DNA from: Fragilariopsis cylindrus CCMP1102
Taxonomy: Eukaryota; Bacillariophyta; Bacillariophyceae; Bacillariales; Bacillariaceae
Length of the DNA stretch: 64,000 bases
Reading direction: 5' to 3'
Assembly (NCBI GenBank): GCA_900095095.1
Contig: FMBT01000316.1
Location: forward strand, 248,001 to 312,000
In this document: one piece after another, positions 7,662 through 64,000 of the stretch
Layout of the letters: every line of letters starts with the position of its first letter
Position numbering within the stretch: the stretch's first letter is position 1
Position numbers and translations under genes: made by a program
Notes under the pieces: generated by a model
The model's database searches: none
Told to the model about the DNA's origin: nothing
The model's input: only the letters and a program-made list of their open reading frames with translations

Positions 7662-8831
7662 ATGACACCGTTCTTTATCAACAACTTAATCAATGGAGTC
7701 TTCCTGTTCCTACTTTGTACACGAAACCTGCAGTCTACGGAAGGACAAATCGTTTTGAGTGGCGATGACAATGAAGTATCCGGCGAATTTTCGACCGTCG
7801 CAGGAGGATTCGGTAATAATGCAACAGATCCTTATTCATTTGTGGGAGGAGGATACTTTAATGATGCAACTGGTGATTATTCATTTGTGGGAGGAGGATT
7901 AGGTAATAATGCAACAGAAAAATATTCATTTGTGGGAGGAGGAATAGGTAATGATGCAACTGGTGCAAGTTCAACCGTATCTGGTGGATTTAATAACATT
8001 GCAAGTGGAGATGAATCAACTATAGGAGGAGGGGATAGTAACATTGCAAGTGGATCAACATCAACTATAGGAGGAGGGGAAATAAACGTGGCAGCCGATG
8101 TAGATGCAACCGTATCTGGTGGATTTAATAACATTGCAAGTAGTGAAGCATCAACTATAGGAGGAGGGGATAGTAACGTGGCAGCCGGTGAAGGTTCAAC
8201 CGTATCTGGTGGATTTGAGAACAGTGCAAGTAGTGACGGATCAACTATAGGAGGAGGAAACCAAAACGAAGCAAGTGGATTTGGATCAACCGTATCTGGT
8301 GGATTTGAGAACATTGCAATAAGTGGCGGATCAACTATAGGAGGAGGGGGTGGTAACGTGGCAGCCGGTTTAGGTTCAACCGTATCTGGTGGAAAGGATA
8401 ACAATGCAACCGGTGCATTCTCGTTCATTGGAGGCGGTGAAAACAACCAAGCTACGGGAAACAATTCAATTGCTATGGGGAGGAATGCAAATGCCAAGAA
8501 GGATCGTTCTCTTGTGATCAATCTAGGAAACAATGAGGCATCATCTAAAAAGGATGGTGAATTCCTTGTAAATTCGGACTCATTTACTCTCCAAATTGGT
8601 AAAAAGAAAGTAACTATTAACAAGAAGAATATCAAAAGATTCAAGAAACTATTAAAGAAAAAGAACCGTCGCCTCGAAGAGATCCCCAACCAGTATGAAA
8701 TTAACGAATACGTCAACCAACAGCAAACAATCATCGAAGAGTTGCACAAACAGAATGAGAAACAGCAAGAACAGATCAACGAGCTCAATCGTATGATGAA
8801 CAATTTTATTGCCCAGTCTAGTAGTGAATAG
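7662..8831 (+). CDS. Secreted protein with YadA-head-like repeats and C-terminal coiled coil
   Basis: A 389-residue single-exon protein. Residues 1-28 look like a signal peptide (hydrophobic NGVFLFLLC core). Residues about 35-270 are some 15-17 tandem 14-residue repeats of the type STVSGGFxNxASGxx / STIGGGDSNVAAGEG. This is the pattern of the left-handed beta-roll head of bacterial trimeric autotransporter adhesins (YadA/Hep_Hag type). The block NSIAMGRNANAKKDRSLVIN follows, also typical of those heads. Residues about 315-389 are Lys/Glu/Gln-rich (KKVTINKKNIKRFKKLLKK, then QQTIIEELHKQNEKQQEQ) and should form a coiled coil, as in the adhesin stalk. No outer-membrane beta-barrel anchor follows, as expected for a protein working outside a eukaryotic cell. 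I infer a trimeric extracellular fibre or adhesin, possibly of bacterial origin. Repeats are nearly identical at DNA level, suggesting recent internal amplification. Confidence 0.75.
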   Translation: MTPFFINNLINGVFLFLLCTRNLQSTEGQIVLSGDDNEVSGEFSTVAGGFGNNATDPYSFVGGGYFNDATGDYSFVGGGLGNNATEKYSFVGGGIGNDATGASSTVSGGFNNIASGDESTIGGGDSNIASGSTSTIGGGEINVAADVDATVSGGFNNIASSEASTIGGGDSNVAAGEGSTVSGGFENSASSDGSTIGGGNQNEASGFGSTVSGGFENIAISGGSTIGGGGGNVAAGLGSTVSGGKDNNATGAFSFIGGGENNQATGNNSIAMGRNANAKKDRSLVINLGNNEASSKKDGEFLVNSDSFTLQIGKKKVTINKKNIKRFKKLLKKKNRRLEEIPNQYEINEYVNQQQTIIEELHKQNEKQQEQINELNRMMNNFIAQSSSE

Positions 8832-9216: not shown

Positions 9217-9960
9217 ATGAGTTCCATTTGGTCCTTACCACCATATTTAATCAGGCTGAATATAATCGGGATGATTATTCTATGCAGTTCTGTTTTAGTT
9301 GGGATCGTATTTCAACTTGATATTTCATACGTACTTCCTATCACATTAATTGGAACATTCATTATTTTTTATGTTGCTTTTTTAGAAGAACAACTCTATA
9401 GAGATATTAGATTTGTGCAGACTATACTTGTTGAAATCACAGGACGTGGTGGTACACCAGTTTATTACCAGGCATCATTCAAAGATGGAGAAACACATCC
9501 AGGTCATTCCGACCTCTGGAATGTGTATTTTGAACAGAAGAAAAATGAAAACGGAGAGGATATCGTTTTGCCTTTAAACTTGATCTCTGGAACGGTAGAG
9601 ATTCGTTTGGGTGGAATAGTTGTAACGGATATGAACTCCTTACCTAGTAGTGTCAATGATCTAGATTGGCTTTTCAGTGACAATGAAGAAAACCCCCAAA
9701 TTGGTAATATATACTTTCAGTATCGAGGACAAAATAATTCCTTTATACACTAATACTTAGTTTGTCGAGTCGGACCGGTACTGTACGAAGATTACCTTTA
9801 TTTAACTGAAGATGAGATAGATGCGGGAGATGTGGTAGATGCTATCAGCGGCTCTCCCGACCTCCGTTTCAACCAAGAAACACCACTAAATTTGACCATT
9901 ATTGGAATAGGACTAAAGAAAGAATCAATCGGATCGCTTCTTTACGTCTGTATCTTCTAG
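9217..9960 (+). CDS. Small membrane protein of unknown family, with an in-frame stop or a 57-bp intron
   Basis: Not recognised. The first 178 codons (to a TAA at 9751-9753) encode two hydrophobic segments (about residues 13-33 and 38-55) and a soluble region with GTPVYYQASFKDGE. After the TAA the same frame stays open for another 68 codons and reads like protein (YEDYLYLTEDEIDAGDVVDA and IGIGLKKESIGS), ending in TAG at 9958-9960. A 57-bp gt-ag intron at 9704-9760 fits: donor gtaata, a ctaat branch-like element, acceptor acttag. It removes the stop and keeps the frame, giving 228 residues. That intron would be short for a diatom. The alternatives are a recent nonsense mutation or stop-codon read-through. 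Start context is plain; there is no obvious signal peptide, and the first helix could act as an anchor. Confidence 0.5.
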
Positions 9961-10379
9961 GCGTTCTGCCATTCTCTCTCTCTCTCTTTCTCTTGTCAGC
10001 CTGTGTTTCTCCATTCATTAAGAAAGTATTCCCAACATCTACTATTTGTAGAAAGTGATGCAGTTAATGGTGCAATATCTCTGAATTGCTGTCTGAAATC
10101 ATATTTCGTGCTTGCCAGTTTTGGTACGAGATCCCCTTTGCTGATGCAGTAGCAATATTTGATCACCGAGTTCATCAGCAATAAAAGTTATCACCTTTCT
10201 TTTAGATATCAACATCCTCCAGTAAATGAGGCAGGGCATCCCTCTCTCTCTTTCTCTCTCTCTACTGTAGATCCCTATATTAACGGAAGCTTAGGAGCCG
10301 TATATGGGCCCGTAACACGCGAAATAATCAGTAAAATACGCGTAAATTAGCGCGTTAAGATAAAGAAAAAATAGCAAGA
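9961..10379. other. Intergenic, CT microsatellites
   Basis: Two CT microsatellites (about 9975-9993 and 10239-10263). A 9-bp inverted repeat (ttgctgatg/catcagcaa, about 10145-10185) flanks a 26-base loop. Short open frames on both strands look protein-like in places, but no family could be recognised. Confidence 0.4.
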
Positions 10380-10936
10380 ATACAGAACGCGAAATAATAA
10401 AAAAAAACGCATAAAATTTTGTTCAGTCTCCTGGCAGAAATCGCTGCACTACAATCTGTACCCAATAAACATTAATAGATAGCTCGCAAAAGTTTCTGAT
10501 GTCGGTTTTCACACAGTGTTAAATATTTTTTCGTTGTACTATTATATTATATCATGCACTATATTTATGTTTTTATATTTCTCTATCTCTCTATCTCATT
10601 TGTATTAATTCTTTTCGTAGTGTTTTCCATTATATTTATACATACATACTACTATTGGGTGTATATCAGATCCCATATAATTACAGTCTCTTTATGTGTG
10701 CGAAACCACACAAAAGGTACAAAAATTAAAAAGAATCGTCATTCACACTCACTCAATGCAGTAACGTTAACAAAATATAAACAGAACCGAACACAAAATC
10801 AAATCAAATCAGAACAAATCAGAACAAAAACAGAATACGCAAACAATAATACGAACAAAAGTAATAATCAATCACGAAGAAGAGATTGACATCCATGATA
10901 TCATTTTATATATACATGCATACATGCCTGAATTAA
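10380..10936 (-). promoter_or_regulatory. Probable 3' UTR of the candidate selenoprotein (SECIS search region)
   Basis: Downstream (minus strand) of the PDI-like gene lies about 550 bp of AT-rich DNA without a gene. If the TGA at 12203-12205 is read as selenocysteine, a SECIS element should be transcribed from here or a little further. By eye I could not settle one. The clearest hairpin is a stem of CTTT and GTGTG pairs around a GTTTCG loop (about 10690-10720), which lacks the ATGA/GA core expected of a SECIS. Several ATGA motifs occur, but none with a convincing stem. Confidence 0.3.
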
Positions 10937-12424
10937 TTAAAATTCATCACCACCAGGACTACTACTCTCCTTCTTCTTCTTATCGTTGTTGTTGTTGTTG
11001 TCTTCTTTTGATTGTTGCGGTTTTGCGGACGATGCATCATTATCATTATCATCATTGCCATCATCATCTTTGACAATAGGGATTTCGATTGGTTCCAAAG
11101 CTGGTTCCTTTAATGAATGTTCATTGAAAAAATCTTGTAACTTCCGTCGTTTATAGTCATCACCTTCATAAATAATAATTTTGGATTTATTATTATTGTC
11201 GTCACTATTATTATCATTATTATTATCGTCATTTGTTGTTGGTGGTGGAATAATATATAATGCCGGTAATACTACTTTTTTATCATCTTTGTCATCACCA
11301 TGACCACCATTACTATCACCACCACCAATGAGTAATTTCCATAATTTGGAATTTTTATCCACGGGTGGAATTTCAACAACTAACAATCGACGACGATATT
11401 CGGTAGATAACCATTTGATAGATGTGGATGTTGATTTTGATTTGGATGTAAATAATAATGCAATCGGCAAACCATATTTATCAGCTTTAGTTTTGATTTT
11501 CATATAATCCTCCACACCAAATTTAATCCGTTCGACGAAATTAGGTATTTGATATTCTAAGAATTTTTTCATATCCGTTACATTCCGTTCACCATGTGAA
11601 TAATCCAATACATTTTTTTCAGCATTGCTTCCTTTTTTCTTTTGTTTCTTTTTGGGTGTAAATAAACGAATGGTTGGTGTACCTTTGTATTCACCTAATA
11701 AACGTGGTGGACGTGATCCACCTTCGGTATCCCAATAGGCTACAGTAACCAGTCCTTTGGTGGATGATGCCAACTTCTCCCATTCACTAATGGTAAATCG
11801 TTTATAAAAGGACAAGTCGAATGAATCGAAAAGGGTACAATTGTGAGTGTGTTTGTGATGATGATGAGTTTACCTTGCGATATAATATGATGAGTACAGT
11901 ATACTTCCTCCGTGAAGCGCTAATTTAATGCGCGCTATCGCTTGGGATTATTAGACAAGGGCGTTGAAACCTTAAAATCTTCGCTTATTTTTATTTTTTT
12001 CGCACATTTCGCATTTTAAGTGTTCAGCAGGCTTTTATGATGTAATAATTCCAGGCGATAGCGCATAGTAAATTAGCGTTGCACCGAGGAGGTAGATATA
12101 GCGATATAGCGGAAAATATTAATTAAAAGTTGTTAATTTATTCGATGGTAGAAAAGGAATTATTTATGTGTAAACTTACGGTTGGAGACGTTGACAGTAT
12201 CCTCATCCATTACGACAAATATTAATCAATACAGCATGAGGATTGTCTAATACAACTTCTTTCCAATTAGCAGATGTTAATGCGATAACATTCGAACTAT
12301 ATGGATTTGATGCATCGACATAGGCACCGTTATTACTGCCGCCGGCAAAAAGAAGTAATAAAAAGGCGGAGGATGCCAACAACACACCGGTCGTGACGCT
12401 TCCGATAGTAGTAAGAGCTACCAT
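10937..12424 (-). CDS. PDI/P5-like thioredoxin-fold protein, candidate selenoprotein (UGYC active site)
   Basis: Two exons, 12424-12180 and 11786-10937, separated by a gt-ag intron (donor GTAAGT at 12179-12174, acceptor ATTAG ending at 11787). Splicing joins QRLQP to EWEKLASSTKGLV in frame. The protein starts with a signal peptide (about residues 10-35), then a thioredoxin domain beginning NVIALTSANWKEVVLDNPHA. The active-site stretch reads INICRNG-TGA-GYCQRLQPEWEK. Aligned with PDIA6/P5 (APWCGHCQRLTPEWKK), the TGA sits exactly on the first redox cysteine. Reading it as selenocysteine gives a 364-residue protein with a U-G-Y-C site. GTPTIRLF is the cis-Pro region. A second, CxxC-less thioredoxin-like domain (VVLPALYIIPP, then YKRRKLQDFFNEHSLKEP) and a Lys/Asp-rich tail follow. 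It should act in oxidative folding in the ER. Sec-containing PDIs are known from some algae. A nonsense mutation is the alternative. Confidence 0.75.
12203..12205 (-). other. In-frame TGA at redox-cysteine position (candidate Sec codon)
   Basis: The minus-strand codon TGA is followed in frame by GGA TAC TGT (G-Y-C). It is flanked upstream by thioredoxin-type sequence and downstream by QRLQP, a consensus donor and a well-conserved second exon. This is the codon that would normally encode the N-terminal Cys of CxxC. Confidence 0.75.
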
Positions 12425-13693: not shown

Positions 13694-16129
13694 TCAAAAC
13701 ACTAATTCTTCATCATCGTCATCATCCTCATCATTGTTGTTACTACTACCATTGTTGCCGTCAACTTTGGCTTTGTGCTGTTCACCCTCTTTTAGAAGCT
13801 TGTTATGATGACGACCAGCATACGAAGATACACTCGCTGCTGTACGTGTTGGTATAAGAGCAGCAAGTTTTTTCCTATCCATATTCATACCGTACCGTGC
13901 TAACGCCATAGCAATTTTTTTGCGTTCTATTCCAGTCCATTTGGTAGAATTACCACACATAATAACTTGTTCACCCTCGTCGTCATTGTTGTCATATTCT
14001 TGTTGTTCTTCTTTGTAGTCGCCATCATTCGGATTATCATAATTATCATTACATGTCGTCGTTGTCATCGTCTTATTAGTGACTGGTGAGGGTTCTACTA
14101 CAACTTTCTTTAAAGCATACGCTCTTGCTTCTGATTTCAACCTAGCTTGTCGTTCATCGTAAGTTTCTGCAAGTACTTCCTCTTCTTCTAGTTCCGCTTC
14201 CTCTTGTTGTTGTTTATAATCGGAATCATCATTACCATCGTCGTCATCGTCATCATCATTGGATGATTCACTACTATGTGTACTACCTGTCAAGACAATG
14301 ACATCGTTACTATTAGAATCCTGTTCAATCTTTAACCTTTTGTTCTTGTCTTGAGAAGAAGAAGCAGTGAAGCATGACTTGACTTTGACTTTTCTTGATC
14401 TTAAATAATTTGAATAGTCGGTTGATGATGCTAATGCTGATGCTAATGCTGATACTGATACGGATGCTGATGCTGATGCTGATGCTGATGCTGATACTGA
14501 TGCTGCTAATGCTGATGCTATAATTGCAGCTTTGTCCACAGAAGTAGTAGTAGTAGTAGTAGTAGCAGAGGAAGAATTCATGTTCTCCTTCTGTGGTTTG
14601 ATTGTCCATATTTGTTTGGGATGCTCAGGGGTAATAATTGGATGCTGATGTTGTCGTTGTTGCCGTTGTTGTTGCTGTACGTCGTTACTACTTTTTCTGC
14701 TACCACTACTACTACTACTACTACTGCTGCTGCTAATATTAATACTAAGATCTTGAGTTGATTGTGCTGATACTGATGCTGATGTTGACATTAATTTTAA
14801 ATGTTGTTTTCTCAGTAGTTCTTGATTTTGTTGTTGTTGTTGAAGATATGCGTGTTCATTTTGTTGATTTGTAGTTCTTTTTTGTGAAGAATGATTATGT
14901 TGCTGTCGTTGTTGTTGACGTTCTGCTTTTTGTTGTCTTGATTTTTTTCTAGCAGCATTGATAAACACACCAGCTTGTCTTAGAAAAGTTTCAAGACGTG
15001 AATTCTGTTGTTGTAATGTTATAATTTTTTGATGTTGCATGGTATTTAGTTGTACTGTTTTTTGCATTTCATTCTTCATAGCTAGATTTTGTTGTTGCAT
15101 TTGTAAATGTTGTTTGTCATAATTTATTACTGATTGTTGTAAAATTGTATTACGATTTTGTAATACCTGTTCTGACTTTTTAATTTCTTTTATCTTACTT
15201 TCATACCCTTCAACACGTTTCCATAATATTTGATTCTGATTCATAAATGTATCTAGCATCAGTCTATTTTGTGCTAATGATTTTGGCATTACCGGTGGTT
15301 GCCGATGATTCAATTCGATTTGTACATCTTGATGTCCAACAATACCATTAACATCAGCAGCATGTGCAGGACGATAGGTAGAAGAACATGATGATCCATA
15401 TGATTGTAATGCTGGTATGCCTTGTCCTACTTGCGGTTGTGGTTGCGATTGTACTTGCTTCAGCTGCTGCTGTTGTTGCTGTTGCTGCTGTTGCTGCCGA
15501 TGTTGATGTTGCTGCCGATGTTTCTGCTGATGATACTGATGTTGCTGCTGCTGCTGATGCTGCTGCTGCTGCTGCTGTAACTGCTGTTGCTGTTGTAACT
15601 GCTGTTGTGGCTGTTGTAACTTCTGTTGCTGTTGCCGCTGTTGTTGCTGTTGCCGCTGTTGTTGCCGCTGTAGCTGCTGCTGTTGCTGCTGCTGTTGCTG
15701 TTGCTGTTGTTGTTGTTGTTGTAGCTGTTTCTGCTGATGATACTGATGATGTTGCTGCTTCCGCGCCGATAATACTCGGGATGCTCCTTCACCTGCTTCG
15801 CCACCGTATACTGGTGGACCTACTGCTGCTGCTGCTACTACTGCTGGACCTAATGGTCTTGGTTGTACTAGGAATTGATGTACGGATGATGATTGTTGCT
15901 GTTGCTGTTGCTGTTGATACATCTTCATTTCTTGTTCAAGTTCACGTTGTATAGCATTTACACCACCAGTAGTACCACTAATCATTACTTCAGCAGCACG
16001 ACCATCTCCACCATTACTAGCATTCACATTCGCATTCGCATTACCATTACAATTATTACCAAAGGAAGACGAATGATATCCCATTGGAACGGCTTTGCTG
16101 ACGTGGATGTTCCTGATGTAGTCGTTCAT
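13694..16129 (-). CDS. Poly-Gln protein with coiled coil and C-terminal SANT/Myb-like domain
   Basis: An 811-residue single-exon protein. Order: a Gln/His-rich N-terminal third with very long Q tracts (about residues 130-240). Then a helical, Gln-rich coiled coil (about 280-410, NRLMLDTFMNQNQILWKRVE onward), and Ser/Ala/Asp-rich linkers. Last comes a SANT/Myb-like segment at about 725-780: KWTGIERKKIAMALARYGMN, then DRKKLAALIPTRTAASVSSY. The tryptophan, the hydrophobic spacing and the R-T-xx-S-V recognition-helix-like end fit a Myb-related DNA- or histone-tail-binding fold. I infer a nuclear regulatory protein whose Gln tracts may serve in activation or assembly. The tail ends in an acidic run. 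Start ATG at 16127-16129 is the first of the frame. Family assignment beyond SANT-like is not possible. Confidence 0.7.
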   Translation of the reverse strand: MNDYIRNIHVSKAVPMGYHSSSFGNNCNGNANANVNASNGGDGRAAEVMISGTTGGVNAIQRELEQEMKMYQQQQQQQQSSSVHQFLVQPRPLGPAVVAAAAVGPPVYGGEAGEGASRVLSARKQQHHQYHQQKQLQQQQQQQQQQQQQQQQLQRQQQRQQQQQRQQQQKLQQPQQQLQQQQQLQQQQQQHQQQQQHQYHQQKHRQQHQHRQQQQQQQQQQQLKQVQSQPQPQVGQGIPALQSYGSSCSSTYRPAHAADVNGIVGHQDVQIELNHRQPPVMPKSLAQNRLMLDTFMNQNQILWKRVEGYESKIKEIKKSEQVLQNRNTILQQSVINYDKQHLQMQQQNLAMKNEMQKTVQLNTMQHQKIITLQQQNSRLETFLRQAGVFINAARKKSRQQKAERQQQRQQHNHSSQKRTTNQQNEHAYLQQQQQNQELLRKQHLKLMSTSASVSAQSTQDLSINISSSSSSSSSSGSRKSSNDVQQQQRQQRQHQHPIITPEHPKQIWTIKPQKENMNSSSATTTTTTTSVDKAAIIASALAASVSASASASASASVSVSALASALASSTDYSNYLRSRKVKVKSCFTASSSQDKNKRLKIEQDSNSNDVIVLTGSTHSSESSNDDDDDDDGNDDSDYKQQQEEAELEEEEVLAETYDERQARLKSEARAYALKKVVVEPSPVTNKTMTTTTCNDNYDNPNDGDYKEEQQEYDNNDDEGEQVIMCGNSTKWTGIERKKIAMALARYGMNMDRKKLAALIPTRTAASVSSYAGRHHNKLLKEGEQHKAKVDGNNGSSNNNDEDDDDDEELVF
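15458..15750 (-). repeat. CAG/CAA repeat tract encoding poly-Gln
   Basis: Nearly continuous interrupted (CAG/CAA)n on the minus strand, with CAT and CGG interruptions. It is likely length-polymorphic. It creates a long open frame of Ala/Val on the plus strand that is not a gene. Confidence 0.9.
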
Positions 16130-62725: not shown

Positions 62726-64000
62726 ATGTCTTCTACTTCCGAGTCTGAACTACAACCCATTGTCGATGCCGATGATTTGTATTACCTTGATTTATCATTT
62801 AGTGATGAATTTTCATCATCAACATTAGAAGAAAATGTGCAGAATCAAGTAAAAGAAATGGATTTAATACTTATGAACTTATATCCAACTACAAAAGCAG
62901 AATTAGAAGGATGGGAATGGTATAAAGGTATATTCCAATCTCCACTATTGACGGTACTATTGTTTGTTATCCCTTTCTTGCTATTGTTTTTATCAACAAT
63001 TCTATTTTGTGTTAACAAAAAACGTCGTAAACGTATTAGTACAGACGGTGATGGCGATGACAATAAAAATGATACTACAGGTATTATTACAACTACTGTT
63101 TCAGCTCAGTCGCGTTATTCTATTGCTGCATCACGTCGTCGACGAGGATCACCTGCCGATGATGATGACGTCGTCGTCTTATCATCACCATCATCATCGT
63201 CCTCAACATTGAGTATGTTTTGTTCATGGTTCCGACGTGTAATTTGGAAAGAAGGATTGCGTATTGAAACGTCCTCATTAAATGTCAAGGATATACTTGA
63301 AAAAGAAATTGATACTATGCAAAAATCGAAGATGACTATTAATGGCAATAATGTTAGTAATAATTCATATCGATTTCAACGTGCTGGAAAACTTTTCAAA
63401 ATCCATCCAAGATCACATATAACAGAAGATGATATACGTAAAGTATATCCTGACTTAGATACTAGTGAAAATGACAGCGGCGATGACGATGACGATGGCA
63501 ACGGCAATAATAGTAATGGCAACAATGGCAATGGCAATGCCAATGCCAATGCCAATACCAATAATTACTATGATAGTAATCGTGTTGTATTATTTTTTAG
63601 ATTAGCATCAATATTTGTATCATGTGGTATGTCAACAATAGAAAATCATGAAATACTCCACAATGTATCAAAAGCATTACATTTACCATTATTATCAAAA
63701 TTAGAATTAGGTTTAAATGAAATAACAGTCCAATTTGAGTTAAGTAGTCCAGTTGTTACAATACAATGTTCAACTGCAGCATTTTATCAATTAAGTTTAT
63801 TAAGTCGATCACAACAATTAGCATACTATATAATTAAAAATGGAAATAGGAATAGTAGACAAAGCAGCAGCTTATTCATTCCAGCTTCTGTATACTTGCG
63901 TGTACTAGATGAACTAGAACAAGATAATGCATCTGATCCATATGGTTGGTTAATAAAAATATCTGCTATCTACATAGTTTGTGTATTCGCACCAGTCTCC
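62726..64000 (+). CDS. ThrE-like (threonine/serine exporter-type) membrane protein, 3' end outside window
   Basis: The frame from the ATG at 62726 stays open to the end of the window (425 codons). The N-terminus is acidic; a hydrophobic segment at about residues 72-95 (SPLLTVLLFVIPFLLLFLST) is followed by KKRRKR, so a membrane anchor. An Asp/Asn/Ser-rich linker follows. From about residue 288 the sequence matches the ThrE N-terminal domain (DUF1212): LFFRLASIFVSCGMST, HNVSKALHLPLL, then YGWLIKISAIYIVCVFAPVS where the first membrane span of the carrier should begin. Bacterial members export Thr and Ser; fungal and algal members are uncharacterised. The cytosolic extension before ThrE is long. 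Confidence is moderate to good because the membrane half is cut off. Confidence 0.72.
   Translation, partial: MSSTSESELQPIVDADDLYYLDLSFSDEFSSSTLEENVQNQVKEMDLILMNLYPTTKAELEGWEWYKGIFQSPLLTVLLFVIPFLLLFLSTILFCVNKKRRKRISTDGDGDDNKNDTTGIITTTVSAQSRYSIAASRRRRGSPADDDDVVVLSSPSSSSSTLSMFCSWFRRVIWKEGLRIETSSLNVKDILEKEIDTMQKSKMTINGNNVSNNSYRFQRAGKLFKIHPRSHITEDDIRKVYPDLDTSENDSGDDDDDGNGNNSNGNNGNGNANANANTNNYYDSNRVVLFFRLASIFVSCGMSTIENHEILHNVSKALHLPLLSKLELGLNEITVQFELSSPVVTIQCSTAAFYQLSLLSRSQQLAYYIIKNGNRNSRQSSSLFIPASVYLRVLDELEQDNASDPYGWLIKISAIYIVCVFAPVS

Follow-up and report, generated by a model that had tools for sequence, protein, structure and literature searches.

Selenocysteine (Sec)-containing PDI-like proteins have been described in several algae. 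In Emiliania huxleyi, the protein EhSEP2 is described as having one thioredoxin domain with a UGHC motif, is supported as a selenoprotein by 75Se labelling, and is termed the most abundant selenoprotein of this alga (PMC6254913), which bears out the remark in the first-pass annotation of the locus discussed here that such proteins occur in algae such as Emiliania. Two Sec-containing PDI homologues are described for the diatom Thalassiosira pseudonana (PMC2375036), and the algal Sec-containing PDIs have been divided into the subfamilies PDI_a to PDI_e, with PDI_a to PDI_d described as carrying one Sec each and PDI_e as carrying a GUGUU motif (PMC7539508). The gene from the diatom Fragilariopsis cylindrus analyzed in this work would, since Sec-containing PDI-like proteins are already known, be a further member of an established group. 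We propose, with a probability of roughly 0.9, that the gene is functional, that its product is a PDI-like selenoprotein with one thioredoxin domain, and that UGA codon 74 specifies selenocysteine under the direction of a SECIS element.

Going by the published descriptions, EhSEP2 and this gene share a single thioredoxin domain with Sec in the first position of a UxxC motif, whereas they differ in that EhSEP2 has UGHC and is supported by 75Se labelling, while the gene studied here has UGYC and is known from its sequence alone. The T. pseudonana homologues are likewise PDI-type selenoproteins, as far as a comparison by description goes. The PDI_a to PDI_d proteins, as described, resemble the studied gene in being PDI-like and having one Sec; in contrast to PDI_e, it does not have the GUGUU motif. 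A text search for the string “UGYC” returned no relevant paper (the matches came from cardiology), alignments in figures and supplements being outside the reach of such a search.

The gene lies on the minus strand of the window, i.e., the entire 64,000-nucleotide stretch of DNA that was analyzed, and consists of the following parts, all coordinates being those of the window.

12424-12180, minus strand: coding part of exon 1, with the hydrophobic N-terminus, the first half of the thioredoxin domain, and UGYC
12205-12203, minus strand: in-frame TGA, proposed selenocysteine codon at residue 74, placed by alignment to the first Cys of CGHC
12205-12194, minus strand: active-site motif U-G-Y-C, as read from the sequence
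12179-11787, minus strand: intron of 393 nt, GTAAGT...CATTAG, with splice sites predicted from the sequence
11902-12094, no strand assigned: miniature inverted-repeat element in the intron, 193 nt, with 52-nt arms that are 83% complementary
11786-10937, minus strand: exon 2, with the remainder of the thioredoxin domain, the C-terminal region, and the TAA stop at 10939-10937

A scripted rebuild of the gene from the minus strand returned the same junction coordinates, and the same TGA-containing frame, as had been proposed in the first-pass annotation. Exon 1 ends in INICRNG-TGA-GYCQRLQ-CC, directly followed by the GTAAGT donor, and its predicted splicing to exon 2 yields 1,095 bases and 364 residues, with INICRNG-U-GYCQRLQPEWEKLA around the TGA, which is the single internal stop. 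Exon 2 can be read for 282 codons in its coding frame without a stop, whereas the five other frames contain 48, 9, 21, 8, and 17 stops. The apparently early-terminated gene is very probably intact. In PDB alignments with both TXNDC5 and PDIA3, the first C of CGHC coincides with the TGA, which confirms the earlier placement of this codon on the first active-site cysteine. The frame is open on either side, and the TGA occupies the sole position at which a Cys-to-Sec exchange makes sense.

These features bear on three other explanations. According to the first, the gene is a young pseudogene, with a chance nonsense mutation or the loss of its SECIS leaving a truncated product of 73 residues. This is consistent with the SECIS being a prediction and with a search of the diatom's own genome (E up to 0.01), which matched only the two exons of the gene itself and found no second copy; we nevertheless consider it very unlikely, given that the sole stop among 364 codons coincides with the catalytic Cys position, that exon 2 is open throughout and the splice sites fit, and that a strong SECIS-like element lies downstream. 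Less likely still is an assembly or sequencing error that turned a TGT or TGC codon of an ordinary Cys-containing PDI into TGA. A single base change would be enough, and because the assembly has one full copy of the locus (among the matches listed), no second haplotype confirms the TGA; such an error would, however, have had to strike by chance exactly codon 74, upstream of a SECIS-like element and in a genome that contains several Sec genes. Finally, alternative splicing might skip the TGA and produce a protein without the active site. A very loose list (GTA or GTG donors upstream of the TGA combined with any AG) contains 148 frame-keeping pairs, but the resulting forms drop GYCQRLQP, which can be aligned with PDIs, and joining the nearest upstream donor, GTAATG at 12213, to the acceptor at 11786 leads to a stop after 85 codons, so that this possibility appears extremely improbable. 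The selenoprotein reading remains the one that we favor. Among viral contigs, 4 pattern matches were obtained, none of them a relative.

The element in the intron has TA at both ends, which resemble those of Stowaway-type MITEs, and similar sequence recurs in the genome: 74 matches were counted among those listed (40 of the 120 candidates were scored, the gene itself is included, and some places are counted repeatedly). Elsewhere in the window, a plus-strand open reading frame at 7662-8831 encodes 389 amino acids with GGG-type repeats that match UspA1_rep (E=6.9e-14; the name comes from a bacterial surface adhesin) and, below the cut-off, an antifreeze beta-roll. A minus-strand open reading frame at 13694-16129 encodes 811 amino acids with very long glutamine runs.

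Searched against Pfam with C written in place of the TGA, the joined protein contains one thioredoxin domain (PF00085; E=5.9e-11, residues 46-141). The nearest of the 59 PDB sequences retrieved (E up to 0.001) are TXNDC5 (3.5e-13), PDIA3 (4.1e-12), and PDIA4 (2.4e-11), with PDIA6/P5 behind them at 1.1e-9. The thioredoxin domains of TXNDC5, PDIA3, and PDIA6 can be aligned with that of the studied gene around CGHC; however, at the positions of the proposed Sec and of the Tyr in UGYC these proteins have Cys and His, and they contain more than one thioredoxin domain, as opposed to a single one here. P5/PDIA6 consists of two a domains and one b domain, and the single thioredoxin stretch seen with Pfam does not agree with membership in that group. 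In the original designation “PDI/P5-like,” the second half is correct only in part: because the PDB matches are nearer to TXNDC5, PDIA3, and PDIA4 than to PDIA6, the sequence is better described as PDI-like with one thioredoxin domain.

The protein also matches the first half of the OST3_OST6 domain (PF04756; E=1.5e-6), with 28.3 bits, just above the cut-off of 27. OST3/OST6, a subunit of the oligosaccharyltransferase, is a thioredoxin-fold family with four membrane helices after the thioredoxin domain. Such helices are missing from the studied protein, in which no 19-residue window past the N-terminus reaches a hydropathy of 1.6 (the maximum beyond residue 60 is 0.51), and this identity was rejected. 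The one hydrophobic stretch at the N-terminus spans residues 6-31, and the C-terminus is GGDEF rather than KDEL or HDEL. A family search with the C-terminal part encoded by exon 2 revealed no clear family, and an AlphaFold2 model of exon 2 alone (mean pLDDT of 34) was unreliable and was set aside.

From the family membership of the protein, we infer Sec insertion, a location in the ER, and a catalytic role in disulfide chemistry. The product would enter the secretory pathway through its hydrophobic N-terminus, and the Sec-Cys pair of UGYC, replacing the usual Cys-Cys pair, would form a selenylsulfide center that makes, breaks, or reshuffles disulfides. Codon 74, a UGA, would be decoded by the ribosome as selenocysteine through tRNA-Sec and eEFSec.

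The presence of the Sec machinery was judged on tRNA-Sec, eEFSec, and SPS2 in the 67.9-Mb genome, which encodes all of these. The first-pass annotation had named tRNA-Sec and EFsec as components to be confirmed, and both were found. Rfam searches gave 15 matches to tRNA-Sec, 13 of them above the cut-off, which matters here because all 14 control genomes also give matches and 5 of these genomes pass it. ARAGORN predicts 11 tRNA-Sec genes, all with the UCA anticodon, in four loci that hold 12 of the Rfam matches. These genes are clustered in threes, spaced by 163 nt at two loci (L009 and L010) and by 163-220 nt at two others (L011 and L014); L009 and L010 are 99.97% alike and therefore probably represent haplotypes. 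The eEFSec-specific domain has one match (E=5e-10) and none in the 14 control genomes. There are two identical copies of SPS2, with the motif KG-TGA-ACKIPQ upstream of the part that the search matched. For F. cylindrus, eleven non-identical tRNA-Sec predictions and 36 selenoproteins are reported (PMC5330540), and the gene analyzed here may already stand in that catalogue.

The interpretation of the TGA as a Sec codon, put forward in the first-pass annotation, is backed by in-frame TGA codons in the genes for SPS2, GPX, SelT, MsrA, and TXNRD, whose motifs we take to be the usual Sec sites. A single TGA is found in 5 of the 9 GPX matches, two of which are one haplotype pair; in L018, L019, L020, and L024 it occupies the Sec site. 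It is also present in 1 of 3 Rdx matches (SelT) and 1 of 15 MsrA matches, while the 22 matches to the TXNRD family include two copies, 99.5% alike, with a C-terminal GC-TGA-G in their last exons, as well as five others that carry other stops. Genome searches for Sep15/SelM and AhpC-TSA_2 gave 2 matches (both below the cut-off) and 3 matches, respectively, none with a TGA. The GPX loci L022 and L023 are two haplotypes (99.3% alike) in which the second exon shifts to other frames towards the C-terminus, reflecting either a broken gene or an additional short intron.

Decoding of the UGA would be directed by a SECIS element, which the first-pass annotation suggested seeking on the minus strand from 10936 down to about 9900. 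That interval contains two candidates, as follows.

10757-10652, minus strand: SECIS-like hairpin with core TGA at 10741-10739 and GA at 10667-10666, AA at 10727-10726, and a long mini-stem
10917-10868, minus strand: weaker, short SECIS-like hairpin with TGA at 10903, within chance expectation

The first hairpin, about 200 nt past the TAA stop, has the quartet AUGAC...CUGAU, a helix II formed by GAUUCU and GGGAUC, the AA 11 nt past the UGA, and a mini-stem GUGUG...CACAC. The initial scans, in which the two halves of the core could stand no more than about 60 nt apart, picked up only the weaker candidate; the limit was then widened to 80 nt, with the AA at 9-17 nt, settings that were chosen after the SPS2 element had been seen. 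The hairpin scores -19.5, which was equalled by none of 300 dinucleotide shuffles of the 1,183-nt downstream stretch, by one of the 127 remaining 1-kb segments in the window, and by none of the 96 taken from 16 further loci. The single matching segment, at 63196 on the minus strand, lies in a GAT/GAC-rich repetitive stretch, and 9 of 223 background segments score -16 or better (2 of 127 in the window and 7 of 96 at the other loci).

An unconstrained fold of 10757-10652 reaches -26.5 kcal/mol (z = -2.8; 2 of 200 shuffles are as stable); in it the AA and some of the core are base-paired in a different register. In a 297-nt context, the same stretch has a z of -0.14, with 90 of 200 shuffles equally good. 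Its AA-to-GA distance of 58 nt is above the 15-39 nt given for SECISearch, and long mini-stems have been described in Ostreococcus (PMC2375036). The short candidate at 10903 looks canonical (ATGA, AA after 13 nt, TTGAT) and was rejected as near chance, with p = 0.10 among 266 of the 318 400-nt window segments, selected by GC content. Under the same short-hairpin rule, seven control genes had p values from 0.13 to 1.0; dropping the requirement for the AA gave 0.05 to 1.0 for them and 0.19 for the studied gene. Searches with the Rfam model SECIS_1 gave no match in the window (gathering threshold), in 9700-11000 (relaxed threshold), anywhere in the genome, or in three of the GPX loci used as controls; we judge this model insensitive here, as it also misses genes whose Sec sites are clear.

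The widened scan gave matches at -16 or better in 3 of 8 control genes, namely SPS2 (-18.4), GPX L018 (-16.4), and GPX L019 (-19.3), and none at that level in GPX L020, GPX L022, SelT, MsrA, and TXNRD. The SPS2 element is strong, with a mini-stem, about 580 nt past the stop, and the gene has another candidate that scores almost as well (-18.0). GPX L018 and L019 are paralogues about 88% alike; a hairpin near their stops, read at first as the SECIS, was set aside in favor of a stronger one about 150-180 nt past the stop. The value of GPX L022 as a control is doubtful, as other frames hold its C-terminal part. In the thioredoxin reductase gene (L044) and GPX L020, the best core-bearing hairpins lie soon past the stops and have no usual apical AA. 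Because the scan was widened after SPS2 and 5 of the 8 control genes lack a comparable match, the hairpin at 10757-10652 is a supported but not proven SECIS. It is conceivable, if rather unlikely, that SECIS elements are unusual in this diatom, with long mini-stems, a G or A preceding the core, and no apical AA in thioredoxin reductase and one GPX; if so, standard SECIS predictors would miss many of its selenoproteins, the studied gene included.

If the proposed reading is correct, this gene adds a UGYC member to the algal Sec-containing PDI proteins. It would also provide an example of an intron right after the Sec codon combined with a SECIS that has a long stem and lies some 200 nt beyond the stop, an arrangement in which annotation could lose the gene.
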